Origin: an unicellular cyanobacterium SU2
Lineage (GTDB): Bacteria > Cyanobacteriota > Cyanobacteriia > Cyanobacteriales > Microcystaceae
Direction: 5' to 3'
Assembly (NCBI GenBank): GCA_002110465.1
Contig: NEED01000081.1
Span: 124,001 to 188,000 of the forward strand
Length of the DNA stretch: 64,000 nucleotides
Position numbers and translations under genes: made by a program. This document shows, one piece after another, positions 25,185-48,945 of this stretch. Each line of letters begins with the position of its first letter. The first letter of the stretch is position 1. Below the pieces are notes generated by a model. That model was not told the DNA's origin. It saw only the letters and a list, made by a program, of their open reading frames with translations, and ran no database searches.

Positions 25185-25810
25185 GCCACCTCCCCATCAA
25201 ATAAGCTAATCCAAAACCGTTGCATTCCAGTGGTTCCGGTACAAAACAAGAGTTGTTTTAATAAAAATAGAGCCAATTCATTTAATTCATCATTGGAAGC
25301 TAGATAAACTGAAACTTTAGCACGACGGGGATTCATCCGACTTTGGAAATGGGCGCGAAATTGATCTAAATATTCTGCTAACAGGAAATGACAAATGACA
25401 GGTAAGCCTTTATTTCTCATCTGTTGTTCAGCCAACAAAAGTTGTCGAATCTGGACGGTTAACGGTTTAGCTCGATAGCTGGCAATAATGACTAAGGCTT
25501 TGGCTTGAGGAAGGGTGAGGGTTCCACGGGTATAGGACCGCCGCCAAGGATTAGTACACCGCAACCGCCATAAAACAATCCTATTTCTAATTATCTCCTG
25601 AAATTGTAGCTGTTGAATGGTTTCGAGCATCTGTTCTGATGCTCCCAGTTCGAGAGCTTCGATCGCCAATAATAATAAATCAATCCGTTGTTGAAGTCGT
25701 ACAGCACATCGCTGGCCAGAGATAGGAAAATCTGGCAGGACATCCAAAATTACAGGTTTAAACTCAGCAGGAGAACTCGAATCGGACATTATGCTAACAG
25801 TGGAACTCAT
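25181..25810 (-). CDS. DUF3038 domain protein
   Basis: A 209-residue soluble, helical protein matching the cyanobacterial DUF3038 family, with core LLLLAIEALELGASEQM, NRIVLWRLRCTNPWRRS and a basic arginine-rich stretch. Start codons at 25810 and 25789 are possible. It is translated just before the DUF4335 gene with a four-base overlap; this pair is recurrent in cyanobacteria, suggesting the products work together. No catalytic motif is visible, and the function is unknown. Confidence 0.85.
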   Translation of the reverse strand: MSSTVSIMSDSSSPAEFKPVILDVLPDFPISGQRCAVRLQQRIDLLLLAIEALELGASEQMLETIQQLQFQEIIRNRIVLWRLRCTNPWRRSYTRGTLTLPQAKALVIIASYRAKPLTVQIRQLLLAEQQMRNKGLPVICHFLLAEYLDQFRAHFQSRMNPRRAKVSVYLASNDELNELALFLLKQLLFCTGTTGMQRFWISLFDGEVA

Positions 25811-25990: not shown

Positions 25991-26013
25991 GTTCGTAGTG
26001 AGGGCTTTAGCCG
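25991..26013. repeat. REP-like half element
   Basis: GTTCGTAGTGAGGGCTTTAG followed by CCG matches the core unit of the arrays at 31652-32030. It ends six bases before the start codon of the gene at 26020. Confidence 0.6.
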
Positions 26014-26019
26014 TCGATC

Positions 26020-26358
26020 ATGACTGACAATCAGTATCATCATAGTCTCAATCGCCTATATCAGACATGGGTTCAGTCTGGATATCAAGGAAATATAACC
26101 ATCTTTGAACCATCAAGGCAATTAGATTCTCGAAAATCTGGATTTGTCATTAAGCCAGATGGTAGATTTTTAGAGCGAAAAAACGCCGGCTGGTGTGGAA
26201 CCCCACCGATTACCTACAAAGATTATCAAGGACACTGGATTAAGCTGTCAGATAGTCTACTAGAAATAACGGTTGGTTATTGGGGCGGTACAACTTCTTA
26301 TCAAATGAAAATTGTCTCACTTAGTTCCCAGGAATTAAAGATTTTATATTATTACTAA
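26020..26358 (+). CDS. Hypothetical beta-rich protein (112 aa)
   Basis: A 112-residue protein with alternating polar and hydrophobic residues that suggests a small beta structure (GFVIKPDGRFLERKNAGWCG, then WIKLSDSLLEITVGYW). One cysteine, no signal peptide, no membrane helix. I do not recognise the family. A REP-like half element lies directly upstream in the place of a ribosome binding site. Ends 115 bases before apt. Confidence 0.65.
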   Translation: MTDNQYHHSLNRLYQTWVQSGYQGNITIFEPSRQLDSRKSGFVIKPDGRFLERKNAGWCGTPPITYKDYQGHWIKLSDSLLEITVGYWGGTTSYQMKIVSLSSQELKILYYY

Positions 26359-30100: not shown

Positions 30101-30714
30101 TACATCCTACCGTCATATATGGTTACTTTCCTTGTCAGTCGGAAGGGAATAAATTATTAGTTTATGACCCAGAAATTGTCCAAAATTCAAACAACAAAAT
30201 TCCTGAAAATATAGACCCCATTTGGGTGATAGAATTTCCTCGCCAAAAATCTGGCCGTCGTCTGTGTATTGCAGATTTCTTTAGCCCCAAAGAATCAGGG
30301 TTAACGGATGTTTTCCCGATGCAAGCCGTGACAGTCGGAGAGATTGCCACAGAATACGCTCAAAAACTCTTTGCAGCTAATGATTACACGAATTACCTCT
30401 ATTATCATGGTATGGCTGTTCAAACCGCCGAAGCATTAGCAGAATGGACACACGCCAAAATTCGTCGAGAATTAGGCTTTGGGGATAAAGAACCCGATAA
30501 CATTCGAGAAATGCTACAACAGCATTATCAGGGTTCCCGTTATAGCTTCGGATATCCTGCTTGTCCTAATATTCAAGATCAATACAAACAGTTAGAGATG
30601 TTGGGATGCGATCGCATTAATATGTATATGGATGAGAGTGAACAGATCTATCCTGAACAGTCTACAACAGCGATTATTACTTATCATCCGGTAGCTAAAT
30701 ATTTTAGTGCCTAA
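27136..30714 (+). CDS. metH: Cobalamin-dependent methionine synthase
   Basis: It moves a methyl group from methyltetrahydrofolate to homocysteine through B12. The 1192-residue protein has all four modules in order: homocysteine domain (about 1-310) with zinc cysteines in GLNCATG and [10 protein letters not shown]; pterin domain (about 335-600) with [14 protein letters not shown] and [11 protein letters not shown]; cap and B12 domains (about 640-880) with the cobalt-ligand histidine in [20 protein letters not shown]; and the reactivation domain (about 920-1190) with [11 protein letters not shown]-like residues ([15 protein letters not shown]). It is full-length. No cobalamin riboswitch was recognised in the 143 bases upstream. 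Confidence 0.98.
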
Positions 30715-30733
30715 GTTGGTAGTCAGCCCTTGA

Positions 30734-31050
30734 GGGCTAATATCAGGCTAAAGCCCTTACGACTAACTTGGGCGATCGCATTTTAGGTTGGTAGTAAGCT
30801 CTTTAGAGCTAAAATAGGGCTAAAGCCCTCACTACGGAACATATAGGGCTAAAGCCCTTATCACTAACTTGGGCGATCGCATTCATATCTATTTTAGTTC
30901 TTAAGTTGTAAAGGGCTAATATTCGGGCTAAAGCCCTTACGACTAACTTGGGCGATCGCATTTTAGGTTGGTAGTAAGCCCTTTAGAGCTAAAATAGGGC
31001 TAAAGCCCTCACTACGGAACATATAGGGCTAAAGCCCTTACTACTAACTT
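30734..31050. repeat. REP-like palindrome array, left of the RAYT gene
   Basis: Two copies of a unit of about 137 bases (30734-30870 and 30913-31050), offset by 180 bases. Each contains palindromes such as GGGCTAAAGCCC and paired inverted forms of GTAGTAAGCCCTTTAG and AGGGCTAAAGCCCTCACTAC. GGGCGATCGC (HIP1) is embedded. The array ends where the transposase reading frame ends. Confidence 0.85.
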
Positions 31051-31644
31051 TTAATCATCCCATCCTTTCCCATAGTCTCTGACAGGATATTTCAACCATC
31101 CATCCCGTAACCATTGTCTGCCTTGAATGTCTAAATACCAGTGAATACTACTTTCAACCCAATCATAAGGGGAATTGACACAGTTATGTTTAACGGGATT
31201 GTAGTGAATATAGTTTAAGGTTGCATAATAATGTCTTTCTGAGCGAATAGCGCGATCGCAAAAACTATACCACACTTTACGACCTCGTTGATGATCCTCT
31301 CGATTCCACTGATAAGCAGTTGAACCATGAATTTTCTGGAAAATAGAATGTAATTGCTTAAAATCTCTAATATAAACCAATAAATGATAGTGATTAACTA
31401 AAATAACCCAAGCCGTAATTTCAAAACCGTGATCAATGAATTGTTCAAAAATCAGGTTCAATAGTTGTTGACGACGGGGTGAAGTGTTAAGAATAGATTG
31501 ATGTTGATAACAAGCGGCGGTTAATAGATAAAATGACTCGATGTTGAGAGGGTGAGGAGGCGCATGAGGAGGAAATCCCTGTTTAAGTCGTTGTTCAACC
31601 AAATCCTTGCGTTGTTTTGGACTTAATTGAGAATATTCATACAT
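31051..31644 (-). CDS. REP-associated tyrosine transposase (RAYT)
   Basis: A 197-residue HUH-type single-strand transposase related to IS200 TnpA. The HUH motif is HYH at residues 85-87 in AWVILVNHYHLLVYI, and the nucleophile helix is HYYATLNYIHYNPVKH (about 138-153). The late SPYDWVESSIHWYL stretch is typical of RAYTs. Such proteins nick and join DNA at REP palindromes. It lies directly between two arrays of such palindromes: only 7 bases separate its start codon from the array at 31652. It appears intact. RAYTs are usually immobile single-copy genes kept by the host. Confidence 0.93.
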   Translation of the reverse strand: MYEYSQLSPKQRKDLVEQRLKQGFPPHAPPHPLNIESFYLLTAACYQHQSILNTSPRRQQLLNLIFEQFIDHGFEITAWVILVNHYHLLVYIRDFKQLHSIFQKIHGSTAYQWNREDHQRGRKVWYSFCDRAIRSERHYYATLNYIHYNPVKHNCVNSPYDWVESSIHWYLDIQGRQWLRDGWLKYPVRDYGKGWDD

Positions 31645-31651
31645 AACTCAA

Positions 31652-32030
31652 GTTTGTAGTAAAGGCTTTAGCCATAATATAAGCCCGAAACGACTAATTA
31701 CAAACTTTGTTAGGTTCGTAGTCAAGGCTTTAGCCTTAAATATCAGCCCTAAAGGGCTGACTACAAACCCTAATCCCTAAGTTCGTAGTAAGGGCTTTAG
31801 CCCTAATATTAAGACCGAAACGACTAATTACAAACTCTGTTAGGTTCGTAGTCAAGGCTTTAGCCTTAAATATAAGCCCTAAAGGGCTGACTACAAACCC
31901 TAATCCCTAAGTTCGTAGTAAGGGCTTTAGCCCTAATATTAAGACCGAAACGACTAATTACAAACTTTGTTAGCTTCGTAGTAAGGGCTTGAGCCTTAAA
32001 TATAAGCCCTAAAGGGCTGACTACAAACCC
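31652..32030. repeat. REP-like palindrome array, right of the RAYT gene
   Basis: Three direct copies of a composite unit with a 130-base period: about 31652-31780, 31781-31910 and 31911-32030. Each has two palindromic cores, GTAGTAAGGGCTTTAGCCCT and AGCCCTAAAGGGCTGACTAC, in opposite orientation, resembling paired REPs (BIMEs). Each core carries the tetranucleotide GTAG (or its complement CTAC) at its outer side. Confidence 0.88.
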
Positions 32031-33424: not shown

Positions 33425-33531
33425 TTTCTTGCTCTAAAGAGCTTACTACAAACCTTAAATTTAAAATCAATTATTCTCCAGGAAAAGGAGTTTGAGTAGA
33501 AAAATAAGGCACTGAAACAGAGAAAAGAAAA

Positions 33532-33560
33532 GTTCGTAGTAAGGGCTTTAGCCCTTAGAA
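33532..33560. repeat. REP-like half element
   Basis: GTTCGTAGTAAGGGCTTTAG followed by CCCTT, a near-perfect match to the core unit of the array at 31652-32030. Confidence 0.65.
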
Positions 33561-45564: not shown

Positions 45565-47007
45565 CTAGCTACGATGCCAAGTTGTTATACCTCCAGGTTG
45601 ATCAACTAAGATAATACCTTGATCTTTTAACTCATCTCGAATGCGATCGCTCTCTGCATAATTTTTATTTTTACGGGCTGTTTTTCGTTGTTCTATTAAG
45701 TATTCAATGTCCGCATCACTTAACCCATTGGTTGACTCTTCTTTAACTTCATTTGGATTAGCTTCTAATCCTAAAACTTGTGCTAATTCTACTAAAGTTT
45801 GCCACTTTTCTCCTAAGACTTGAGGTGAAGTTTCTGTCTTTCCTTGGTGAACTAAAATATTGCCTTCTTTGCGTAATTCTTTGGCAATTTCAAATAACAC
45901 CGCTAACCCCCCTGCAAAGTTGAAGTCATCATCTACGACTTCTTGAAATCTTTGTTTTAAAGTAGGGGAAGACTTGGCAACGGAAAAGCCTAATTGAGAT
46001 CCGTATTGATAGCCAAAAAGTAATCCTTCTTTAAGAGTATGCCAGCCATTGGTTGCTGCTTCTAATGCTTCATCTGTAAAGTCTACCGGTTTTCGATAAT
46101 GAGCTTGGAGAATAAACAGTCGCATCGCCATTGGCTCAACTGTTGCTAATAAATCCCGAATGGTAGTGAAATTTCCCAAGGATTTTGACATTTTTTCCCC
46201 GTCTACCTTCACCATGCCATTGTGCATCCAATAACGGGCTAAAGGTTCCCCTGTCGCTGCTTCTGACTGGGCAATTTCATTTTCATGGTGAGGAAAAATT
46301 AAGTCACTTCCCCCCACATGAATATCGATGGTTTCCCCTAAGCGTTCTAAAACCATCGCAGAACATTCAATATGCCATCCTGGGCGACCTTTACCCCAAG
46401 GAGACTCCCAAGAGGGTTCTCCGGGTTTCGCGCTTTTCCAAACAGCAAAGTCTGCGGGGTCTTTTTTCTTGCTTTCTTCAGGGTCTTCTACCGCAACCCT
46501 ACCACTAGCCCCTGCTTGCAAATCCTCTAATTTTCGCCCTGAGAGTTTTCCATAGTCTTGAAAATGACGTACTGAGTAATAAACATCTCCATTAGACTGA
46601 TAAGCATAGCCTTTTTGTTGAAGTTGAGATACTAAACGTTGAATACCATTGAGGGTATGAGTCGCGCGGGGATAAGCATCCGCTTGTTTGACATGAAGAC
46701 GTTCCATATCCTCGAAATAAGCCTCAATAAACCGTTCAGACACTGATTCCATCGATATCCCTTCTTTCCTTGCCCTGTTGAGGATTTTATCGTCAATGTC
46801 CGTAAAATTTTGAATATAGGTGACATCATACCCACGCCATTGCAAATAACGCCGTACCACATCCCACACCATACAGGTTCTCGCATGACCTAAATGGCAA
46901 TAATCATAGACTGTAATACCACAGCAATACATCCGAACTTTACCATCTTCAATAGTTTCAAAGGGTTCTTTTTTACGGGTTAGGGTGTTATATACGGTTA
47001 GTGTCAT
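45565..47007 (-). CDS. cysS: Cysteinyl-tRNA synthetase
   Basis: It charges tRNA-Cys. The 480-residue protein has the class I signatures HLGHAR at residues 38-43 and KMSKSLGNF near 270, the zinc ligands in MYCCGITVYD, WHIECSAM and FPHHENEIAQ, and the anticodon-binding end. Length is normal. Heptamer repeats lie only 7 bases upstream of its start codon, in the region where a ribosome binding site should be. Confidence 0.97.
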   Translation of the reverse strand: MTLTVYNTLTRKKEPFETIEDGKVRMYCCGITVYDYCHLGHARTCMVWDVVRRYLQWRGYDVTYIQNFTDIDDKILNRARKEGISMESVSERFIEAYFEDMERLHVKQADAYPRATHTLNGIQRLVSQLQQKGYAYQSNGDVYYSVRHFQDYGKLSGRKLEDLQAGASGRVAVEDPEESKKKDPADFAVWKSAKPGEPSWESPWGKGRPGWHIECSAMVLERLGETIDIHVGGSDLIFPHHENEIAQSEAATGEPLARYWMHNGMVKVDGEKMSKSLGNFTTIRDLLATVEPMAMRLFILQAHYRKPVDFTDEALEAATNGWHTLKEGLLFGYQYGSQLGFSVAKSSPTLKQRFQEVVDDDFNFAGGLAVLFEIAKELRKEGNILVHQGKTETSPQVLGEKWQTLVELAQVLGLEANPNEVKEESTNGLSDADIEYLIEQRKTARKNKNYAESDRIRDELKDQGIILVDQPGGITTWHRS

Positions 47008-47041: not shown

Positions 47042-47696
47042 GTTTTAAGGTGTCTAACTATTTATCATGCGATCGCTGGCTTGAGTATCTTCTTGAGTCT
47101 CTTTAATAAACGTTAAGTGGTTGGTCACCAGTAAAGTTAACTTTGAGGTTAGGGAACGTCGGAACCGATAAGGGTTGTCCCCTTGTTAACATAAGTTAAT
47201 ATAGTGCTGTTTATTTATGTCCGACTACTTAAGAGCATGAGTCATCTTTTTATAGATTAAGCGATCGCTTTACGGTTCCCTAATTATCGTAACAATATTT
47301 TGACAATTGATAGAATGAAAGAGGAGTGCTTAATTCACTGATATGTAGGCTCGTAGTAAAGGCTTTAGCCTTTAGAAATCAATCTTTAAAGAGTTGACTA
47401 CCAACTGATAAGACTACCAAAATCAACTTAATGTTTTATTGGCAAACAGTTTCTAAAACTGCCCGTCTAGCCCTAGGGTAAGGCTTTTTCTAATTTTAAT
47501 GGTGATCCCTTGCTTTTCTAACCATAAAAAATAGTCGGTTTAATAAGTGAGTACATAAAATTAATTGCACATCAAGCTAGACTAAAAACCTGATTATATA
47601 AGCATTGTAGGAAATTAAAGTGTGCAATTAATTAAGTTTAGGTACTTATAACGGTGTAGAAACTGTAACAGGTTGATTTATGAATTAAATTTTTGA
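47042..47696. other. Gene-free stretch upstream of cysS
   Basis: About 650 bases without a supported gene. It contains two HIP1 sites, a small stem AAGGG/CCCCTT near 47175-47190 and a REP-like piece at 47348-47405. Confidence 0.5.
47348..47405. repeat. REP-like element
   Basis: GGCTCGTAGTAAAGGCTTTA, then GCC, matches the array units at 31652-32030 with a few changes, and GAGTTGACTACCAAC may be the opposite half. Confidence 0.55.
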
Positions 47697-47973: not shown

Positions 47974-48945
47974 TCACCCAAAGGGAATTAAACTGACCAA
48001 AGTGGTCAAATTATCTCCCACAGTAGCCATTAATTGATGGGTAACAGGAAGACTATCAACAACCATTCCTGTACATAACAGCATTAGGTAAAGGATCGAA
48101 AATTTGAACAGCGATCGCGCTAATTCTTGATTAAAAGGAGCTTGTTTTAATTGCCAAGCTTTCTGGAGAAACTTAACCCCTAAAACCACTGCAATTACGC
48201 CATAAAGAACCCCGGATACCCCTAAAGGATAAACCAACAGGAAAGTACAAGGAATGACCAGTAAGGTATACCACCAAATTTGTTGAACTGTAGACTCTTC
48301 CCCTTCTACCACCGGCATCATCGGAACATTGACCTGAGCATAATCTTCTTTAATCATCAACGCCAATGCCCAGAAATGGGGGGGAGTCCACAAGAAAATG
48401 ATGGTAAACAAAACCCACGGAGCCCAACTTAAATCGCCGGTAACTGCCGCCCAACCCACAAGAGGGGGTATAGAACCTGCAGCCCCACCAATGACGATGT
48501 TTTGAGGGCTATTTCGCTTAAGAAAGTGGGTATATACCAGCATATAGAAAACAATGCCGGACATAGCTAATAAGCCACTGAGAACATTCACAAACAGGGC
48601 AAATAGAGAAAAGGAAAAAATAGCAAGGATAACGGCGAAAATGAAGGCATGACGTGACTGTACTCGTCCAGAGGGAATAGGACGCGCTCTGGTTCGCAAC
48701 ATTTCATAATCAATATCACGGTCATAGATGCAGTTCATTACCTGGGCTGAAGCAGCCGCTAGGGTTCCCCCTAATAGAGTAATAAATAGGGTAAACAGAT
48801 CGACTCGACCTTCACCAGCAATCCACATAGCTGCAGTTGTAGTAATCAGCAATAAGGGAATAATACGAGGTTTGGTTAGCTGATAGTAACTCTTTACAGC
48901 TTGTAGCCAGTTTTCATTACGGCGGGCAACATTAGTCCCAATCAT
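47974..48945 (-). CDS. ctaB: Protoheme IX farnesyltransferase (heme o synthase)
   Basis: It adds the farnesyl tail to heme b, giving heme o for the terminal oxidase. The 323-residue membrane protein of the UbiA family has about nine helices and the diphosphate-binding motif NCIYDRDIDYEMLRTRARP near residue 80, with the later acidic motif in LMIKEDYAQVNVPMM. The first 20 residues are basic and cytoplasmic. The neighbour ctaA carries out the next step, so the two genes make heme a. Confidence 0.96.
   Translation of the reverse strand: MIGTNVARRNENWLQAVKSYYQLTKPRIIPLLLITTTAAMWIAGEGRVDLFTLFITLLGGTLAAASAQVMNCIYDRDIDYEMLRTRARPIPSGRVQSRHAFIFAVILAIFSFSLFALFVNVLSGLLAMSGIVFYMLVYTHFLKRNSPQNIVIGGAAGSIPPLVGWAAVTGDLSWAPWVLFTIIFLWTPPHFWALALMIKEDYAQVNVPMMPVVEGEESTVQQIWWYTLLVIPCTFLLVYPLGVSGVLYGVIAVVLGVKFLQKAWQLKQAPFNQELARSLFKFSILYLMLLCTGMVVDSLPVTHQLMATVGDNLTTLVSLIPFG

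Follow-up and report, generated by a model that had tools for sequence, protein, structure and literature searches.

A RAYT gene between two arrays of GTAG-tagged REPs in a unicellular cyanobacterium, with a possible change of guide tag among its relatives

The described systems closest to the locus reported here are the GTAG-tagged REP families of cyanobacteria and the RAYT (TnpA-REP) proteins. For the former we rely on the text of Di Nocera et al. (2013; PMC3733652). The families described there include GTAG-12, GTAG-15 and GTAG-16, which occur in Cyanothece and filamentous cyanobacteria and form REPtrons; in some families bases two and three are noted to be degenerate, and GTGG is given for O. 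terrae (PMC3733652). For Planktothrix, REP-like short repeats are mentioned in PMC9366434. Among the RAYT proteins, subclass 2.8 is represented by eight members in the published table of Quentin et al. (2018; PMC6006769), with a length of 199 amino acids and the motifs NHYH, W[YH] and YIHYNP. Its members in that sample are from Cyanobacteria, related sequences are mentioned in other phyla, and its REPs are given as long, canonical and tagged GT[AG]G, with REP insertion inside some of the genes. According to the text of Corneloup et al. (2021; PMC8266576), the S. maltophilia enzyme failed to cleave when the guide was GTTG, and changes of the guide shifted the cut of the Marinomonas enzyme predictably, A3G4 choosing CT.

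Here, we describe a locus that is an ordinary example of this already known kind. It lies in a window of 64,000 nucleotides, the whole stretch of DNA analysed, from the unicellular cyanobacterium SU2. The open reading frame at 31051..31644 on the minus strand (197 amino acids, ATG start) is, judged from its sequence, a RAYT (TnpA-REP) gene whose features are those of the cyanobacterial subclass 2.8. Its product scored 91.5 bits with the NCBIfam model REP_Tyr_transpos (NF047646), for which the cut-off is 80. The protein carries the HUH motif NHYH at residues 84–87 (31384..31395, minus strand) and one catalytic tyrosine, Tyr145 (31210..31212, minus strand), which aligns with the catalytic Y115 of the E. 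coli protein; both are invariant in 28 aligned sequences. W125-Y126 (31267..31272, minus strand) align with W94-Q95 of E. coli, and residue 126 covaries with a base of the guide tag in relatives of the gene. The best solved match by sequence (E-value 1.9e-7), profile (4.2e-13) and fold search (1.4e-7, rank 1) is 4er8, a RAYT bound to a REP hairpin, and the AlphaFold model of the protein has a mean pLDDT of 83.4 and a pTM of 0.74. The nearest named RAYTs are from Crocosphaera, with 81 and 79% identity. The genome holds four RAYT-like genes, of which only this one is of the 2.8 type, a single copy unlike that of an IS family. An identity as IS200/IS605 was rejected, as the IS200 transposase model NF033573 gave a weak 19.6 bits against a cut-off of 55.

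By length and motifs (197 against 199 amino acids, NHYH, WY, YIHYNP), and also by its cyanobacterial origin and long GTAG REPs, the gene fits the published table of subclass 2.8 (PMC6006769). In contrast to the eight members and GT[AG]G tags of that table, we count 103 non-redundant relatives, among which the Trp can also be followed by Cys or Phe and the guide can also be GTTG or GTCG. The likeness to the TnpA-REP/REP system of E. coli, as described for 4er8 and in the text of PMC8266576, extends to the fold, the HUH and Tyr residues, the W-x...R recognition region and the position of GTAG 5' of a hairpin. However, in E. coli the REP stem is bulged and the enzyme has Gln95 and tolerates no change of GTAG, whereas the REPs described here have contiguous short stems and a TTYA loop, and the enzyme has Tyr126 (Cys in relatives with GTTG).

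In the REPs that flank the RAYT gene, GTAG stands on the 5' side of a hairpin. One such REP (tag starting at 31044, minus strand) is 6 nt from the gene and another, starting at 31656, is 11 nt from it; the earlier note, in which an HUH transposase gene was placed between two arrays, was right in this respect. The left array, 3' of the gene (30719..31044), contains plus-strand REPs starting at 30719, 30791 and 30971 and minus-strand REPs starting at 30835, 31015 and 31044. In the right array, 5' of the gene (31656..32024), plus-strand REPs start at 31656, 31718, 31785, 31848, 31915 and 31978, and minus-strand REPs at 31764, 31894 and 32024. The left array includes two copies of 128 nt (30743-30870 and 30923-31050) that are 97% identical; their offset of 180 is as the note had it, while the unit is shorter than the 137 bases it gave. 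Its three 130-base composites in the right array were found at 31680, 31810 and 31940, with whole-length identities of 98% for the second and 69% for the third. Both arrays are built from one REP family and differ in how the REPs are assembled into tandem composites. The proposal of two evolving REP subtypes is not supported as worded, since across the genome the letters of the stem grade into one another (GGG, GCC, GTC, GGA, GCT, GAG and others). The further copies that had been announced at 25991, 33532 and 47348 are also present. The outlying REPs comprise a degenerate one at 25995..26014 (plus strand, between ORFs ending at 25810 and starting at 26020), one at 33430..33449 (minus strand, thus starting at 33449), one with a perfect stem at 33536..33555 (plus strand) and one at 47353..47372 (plus strand, between ORFs ending at 47007 and starting at 47974). 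All REPs of the window lie outside ORFs of at least 60 amino acids. The HIP1 octamer GCGATCGC was observed in the spacers of the left array (30772-30779, 30873-30880 and 30952-30959) and once inside the RAYT gene (31252-31259); the window contains 36 such octamers against 0.19 expected.

The repeat is mostly of the form GTTY-GTAGT-NNNNN-CTTYAG-stem'. The 20-base pattern GTAGTNAGNNCTTNAGNNCT, which has fixed letters in stem and tag and for that reason misses the REPs of several orthologs, has 104 exact copies in the 5.24-Mb genome against 0 for the reversed control, and 195 against 4 when one mismatch is allowed; GTAGTNAGNGCTTTAGCNCT has 44 copies against 0 reversed. REPs like those at the RAYT gene are therefore dispersed in the genome: among the exact copies listed, 11 lie in the two arrays and the rest are spread over many contigs. 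The genome-wide search thus supports the earlier reading of the locus as a REP/BIME-RAYT system of cyanobacteria that follows a GTAG rule. When the window was scanned more loosely, for GTAG with any short stem, 31 matches were obtained, against 10-26 in each of ten sequences generated by a first-order Markov model. This is hardly above random, and the general description is weak alone; the exact family, to which the enrichment belongs, was used in its place. The family resembles GTAG-12, GTAG-15 and GTAG-16 in its GTAG tag, its cyanobacterial host and the REPtron arrangement, a comparison made with the text of PMC3733652.

The GTAGT tag, which is outside the stem, and the TTYA loop are kept while the stem letters vary. 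In 40 distinct REPs, preselected for at least four of six stem pairs (a filter that 55/60 motif sites passed and that inflates covariation), Watson-Crick pairing was found for stem pair 10-17 in 36 cases and for 9-18 in 37, whereas none of 2000 shuffles exceeded 27. These two inner pairs occur among the copies as G-C, C-G, T-A and A-T, which are compensatory changes. Four stretches folded as single-stranded DNA gave z-scores of -4.0, -1.9, -2.5 and -3.2, and the bulged imperfect stem of E. coli-type (group 2) REPs was not seen. Inverted REP pairs of 34-60 bp are recurrent in the genome, and one pair of 48 bp has the same sequence at three places (L018, L032 and L232) and almost the same at one more (L238).

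The association of this gene type with REPs was followed through 103 non-redundant orthologs, obtained by dropping sequences with at least 98.5% identity (18 of the first 113) and adding 8 of 32 later loci; L065, a split match, was excluded from the counts and L114 used in its place. REPs of the same architecture (GTNGT, short stem, TTNA loop) were present in the 700-nt flanks of 97 of the 103. No such REP was found for the other six. The first tag counts omitted six orthologs for which no REP was detected (L064, L068, L083, L101, L134 and L142), and the final total likewise omits six. When the flanks of six apparent exceptions were inspected by eye, L048, L052, L054, L055 and L062 were seen to have GTTG or GTCG tags, and L064 had none. 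When tetramers on the 5' side of hairpins were counted around 80 named orthologs, with no motif assumed, GTAG was again the commonest, with 303 near the genes against 42 in distant flanks (7.2-fold).

Among the four RAYT-like genes of the genome, only the window gene is flanked by the GTAG-tagged REP family, and a strict scan found no such REP at the other three (L012, L013 and L015). Of 50 listed matches to RAYT loci of other kinds, 30 were read; 29 were without a window-type REP in the stretch read (20 genomes, most of them REP-rich), and the thirtieth, in G023, turned out to be an ortholog and has the REP. At a distance of about 1.1 kb from the RAYT-like gene on C2 (L015) there is a single degenerate hairpin resembling a REP, and the RAYT-like gene of L013 (G000:C8:112697-115867) adjoins perfect palindromes GTAGGGG(TC/CG)AACGGCCGTT..., which also occur after metH in L219.

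An ortholog of the window RAYT is present in 30 of 195 genomes of the order. Genomes were called REP-rich when they had at least 50 matches to the pattern, of which stem pairing is not a part, and at least 2.5 times the control. This was the case for 26/30 genomes with an ortholog against 27/165 without (Fisher p ~1e-13, uncorrected for kinship); the four ortholog genomes below the threshold are G058, G065, G172 and G181. Conversely, G008, G104, G121 and G150 have about 530 to 1070 matches to the GTAG pattern without an ortholog. None of the other RAYT loci read in this group has these REP flanks, and G008 has no match to NF047646 at E<=1e-8. Few or no extra members came from a class-wide search with a Cys-type query and from a family-wide search. 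Repeats in relatives devoid of the RAYT gene had been named in the earlier note as the observation that would speak against its reading, and such relatives do exist, as G169 lacks an ortholog but carries 21 exact copies. Relatives of this kind would also be expected if the enzyme gene had been lost or fell into an assembly gap, and the presence of the ortholog still goes with REP richness in the counts above.

In the window genome, the stop codon of metH at 30714 is immediately followed by the array and the RAYT gene. REP hairpins right after the metH stop are also present in G169, of the same genus (one tag degenerate), and in G129, of the same family, and a RAYT ortholog was absent anywhere in these two genomes at E<=1e-10. 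The remaining nine of 11 relatives, inspected by eye over 260 nt, had no REP after metH. The comparison is one of presence and absence of REPs at a homologous site, and no movement of the RAYT gene is demonstrated by it. G169 has a pilin match about 31 kb from metH; the metH and pilin genes are not neighbours there, and thus a clean empty site of the RAYT gene itself is lacking.

We consider it highly probable that the locus is a REPtron, in which one gene for an HUH/Tyr single-strand endonuclease (TnpA-REP, with subclass 2.8 features) is accompanied by its own REP family. By analogy with the studied TnpA-REPs, the enzyme may bind, cut and mobilise these REPs. Its substrate would be a single REP strand in hairpin form (5'-GTAGT, stem of 4-7 bp, TTYA loop), GTAG would serve it as a guide, Tyr145 would make the cut, and REPs or inverted pairs of them (REPINs) would spread in trans. 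The REP-rich genomes without an ortholog (27/165), the orthologs without a REP (6/103) and the ortholog genomes below the REP-rich threshold (4/30) count against the REPtron reading. One could also think of the repeats as terminators or mRNA-stabilising hairpins maintained by selection, among which the RAYT gene landed as a bystander. The REP placed directly after the metH stop codon, the location of the window REPs outside ORFs and the compensated stems would all agree with such a role. However, the GTAGT tag lies outside the stem and, together with the TTYA loop, is constant while stems change, and 97/103 orthologs are flanked by REPs against 0/29 of the other RAYT loci read, which makes this explanation very improbable. 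Scarcely better are the chances that another RAYT or an IS200/IS605 transposase spreads the REPs and that the subclass 2.8 gene just resides among them. REP-rich genomes without the ortholog would be expected in that case, and candidates are at hand in the three further RAYT-like genes of the genome, one of which has the degenerate hairpin mentioned above. On the other hand, no other RAYT-like locus read carries a window-type REP in the strict scan, and the tag variants of the REPs track a residue of the subclass 2.8 protein itself.

That residue is at position 126, which follows the conserved Trp125 and is usually Tyr, His or Phe; it is Tyr in the window protein. At least two flanking GTTG copies were found for 10/12 orthologs with Cys126 against 0/85 with Tyr, His or Phe. 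GTTG is the dominant tag in seven of the first 95 orthologs (tied with GTCG in L062), and all seven have Cys126. L099 and L105 have Cys with GTAG only, L058 and L182 have Cys with mixed tags, L141 (Phe) has one GTTG of three, and L183, L191 and L200 have His or Tyr with GTAG. Repeated GTTG at a gene's own arrays was thus confined to Cys orthologs, and Cys permits GTAG too. Genome-wide, the pattern GTTGTN{4,5}CTTYAG is elevated (50 or more matches and no fewer than twice those of the control, with stem pairing unchecked by the pattern) in 7/8 genomes with a Cys ortholog, two of which (G126 and G032) also hold another copy, against 2/22 in which all orthologs have another residue; G071 (Cys) has 54 GTTG matches against 36 in the control. 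A strict code between residue and tag is contradicted by two genomes. G023, with a His ortholog, has 672 GTTG against 240 GTAG matches and RAYT flanks with GTAG and some GTCG, and G125, with a Phe ortholog, has 123 against 58 and RAYT flanks with GTAG.

It is conceivable, and we would give it somewhat less than an even chance, that the link between Cys126 and GTTG reflects shared ancestry or coincidence and is uninformative on recognition. Most Cys cases are in one clade, and the exceptional orthologs and the two GTTG-rich genomes just described point the same way. On a tree built without residues 117-127, parsimony requires a minimum of six changes for the GTTG state and of seven for Cys. Four well-supported independent contrasts are available, in which Cys changes with GTTG in 4/4 for 192/200 pairings and in 3/4 for the other eight; the median p of 0.125 in the sign test is the least possible with four contrasts. 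With the dominant tag as the trait, three of the four contrasts agree and the fourth shows no difference. Several observations argue for a closer connection. In a column scan of five hand-picked GTTG/GTAG contrasts, residue 126 was the sole column with the same change in 5/5, the next best (five columns) reaching 3/5. L048, with Cys, is located outside the main Cys clade. G032 by itself has both a Cys copy (L054) with GTTG and a His copy (L150, broken by one stop) with GTAG. Finally, the column aligns with Q95 of E. coli, which is named among the GTAG-contacting residues in the texts of PMC6006769 and of Corneloup et al. (2021; PMC8266576). The association between Cys126 and GTTG, limited by shared ancestry, is suggestive only.

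Whether one residue has enabled subclass 2.8 to replace its GTAG guide, naturally and repeatedly, with GTTG (and GTCG) appears to us evenly balanced. An aromatic residue or His at position 126 would then read A3, and Cys would let T3 (or C3) in. If the switch is real and the guide model of Corneloup et al. (2021), in which A3G4 chooses CT, applies, a GTTG guide is predicted to choose CA; the cleavage dinucleotide would change from CT to CA, and one residue and one base would retarget a whole repeat family. Flanks of GTTG REPs inspected by eye gave no clear trace of a shift from CT to CA. Earlier work on the matching of RAYTs and REPs mutated guides artificially, whereas the relatives described here offer naturally matched pairs, and the two guide versions within one genome (G032, and G126 with a Tyr copy, L041, beside GTAG and a Cys copy, L151, beside GTTG) make the recognition and cleavage-site rule directly testable. 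Neither GTTG REPs in nature nor a link to residue 126 were found described in the running text of the open-licence literature on RAYT, REP, REPIN or REPtron (including PMC3733652, PMC6006769, PMC8266576, PMC13289151 and PMC9366434). The word GTTG is absent from the text of PMC3733652, whereas such tags are seen in relatives here.

Differently tagged REPs face each other in the flanks of L045 (GTAG with GTCG) and L062 (GTTG with GTCG). A possible protein-DNA ruler was considered and put aside: with 12 residues from W113 to W125, the gap between tag and loop is 4 nt in 19/19 cases, against 0/78 with 13-14 residues. It is not claimed as a rule because it corresponds to a single change on the tree and 13 residues pair with both 5 and 6 nt. 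The RAYT/REP architecture was also observed in other phyla, namely in Chloroflexi (L096, L097, L100, L122, L133 and L135) and in Poribacteria (L136, L137 and L143-L145), the latter with a 6-nt gap and a loop closed by A-T (ATTYAT). In 17/103 orthologs, a REP is located inside the RAYT coding sequence (L044, L050, L053, L060, L063, L078, L085, L089, L091, L095, L107, L111, L112, L116, L117, L130 and L203). It is antisense at codon 83 in 14 of the 17, of which most of the named ones are Nostocales; the stems vary there without loss of pairing, and the protein of L044, L053, L060 and L063 reads SAEAL or SAKAL at the internal REP.
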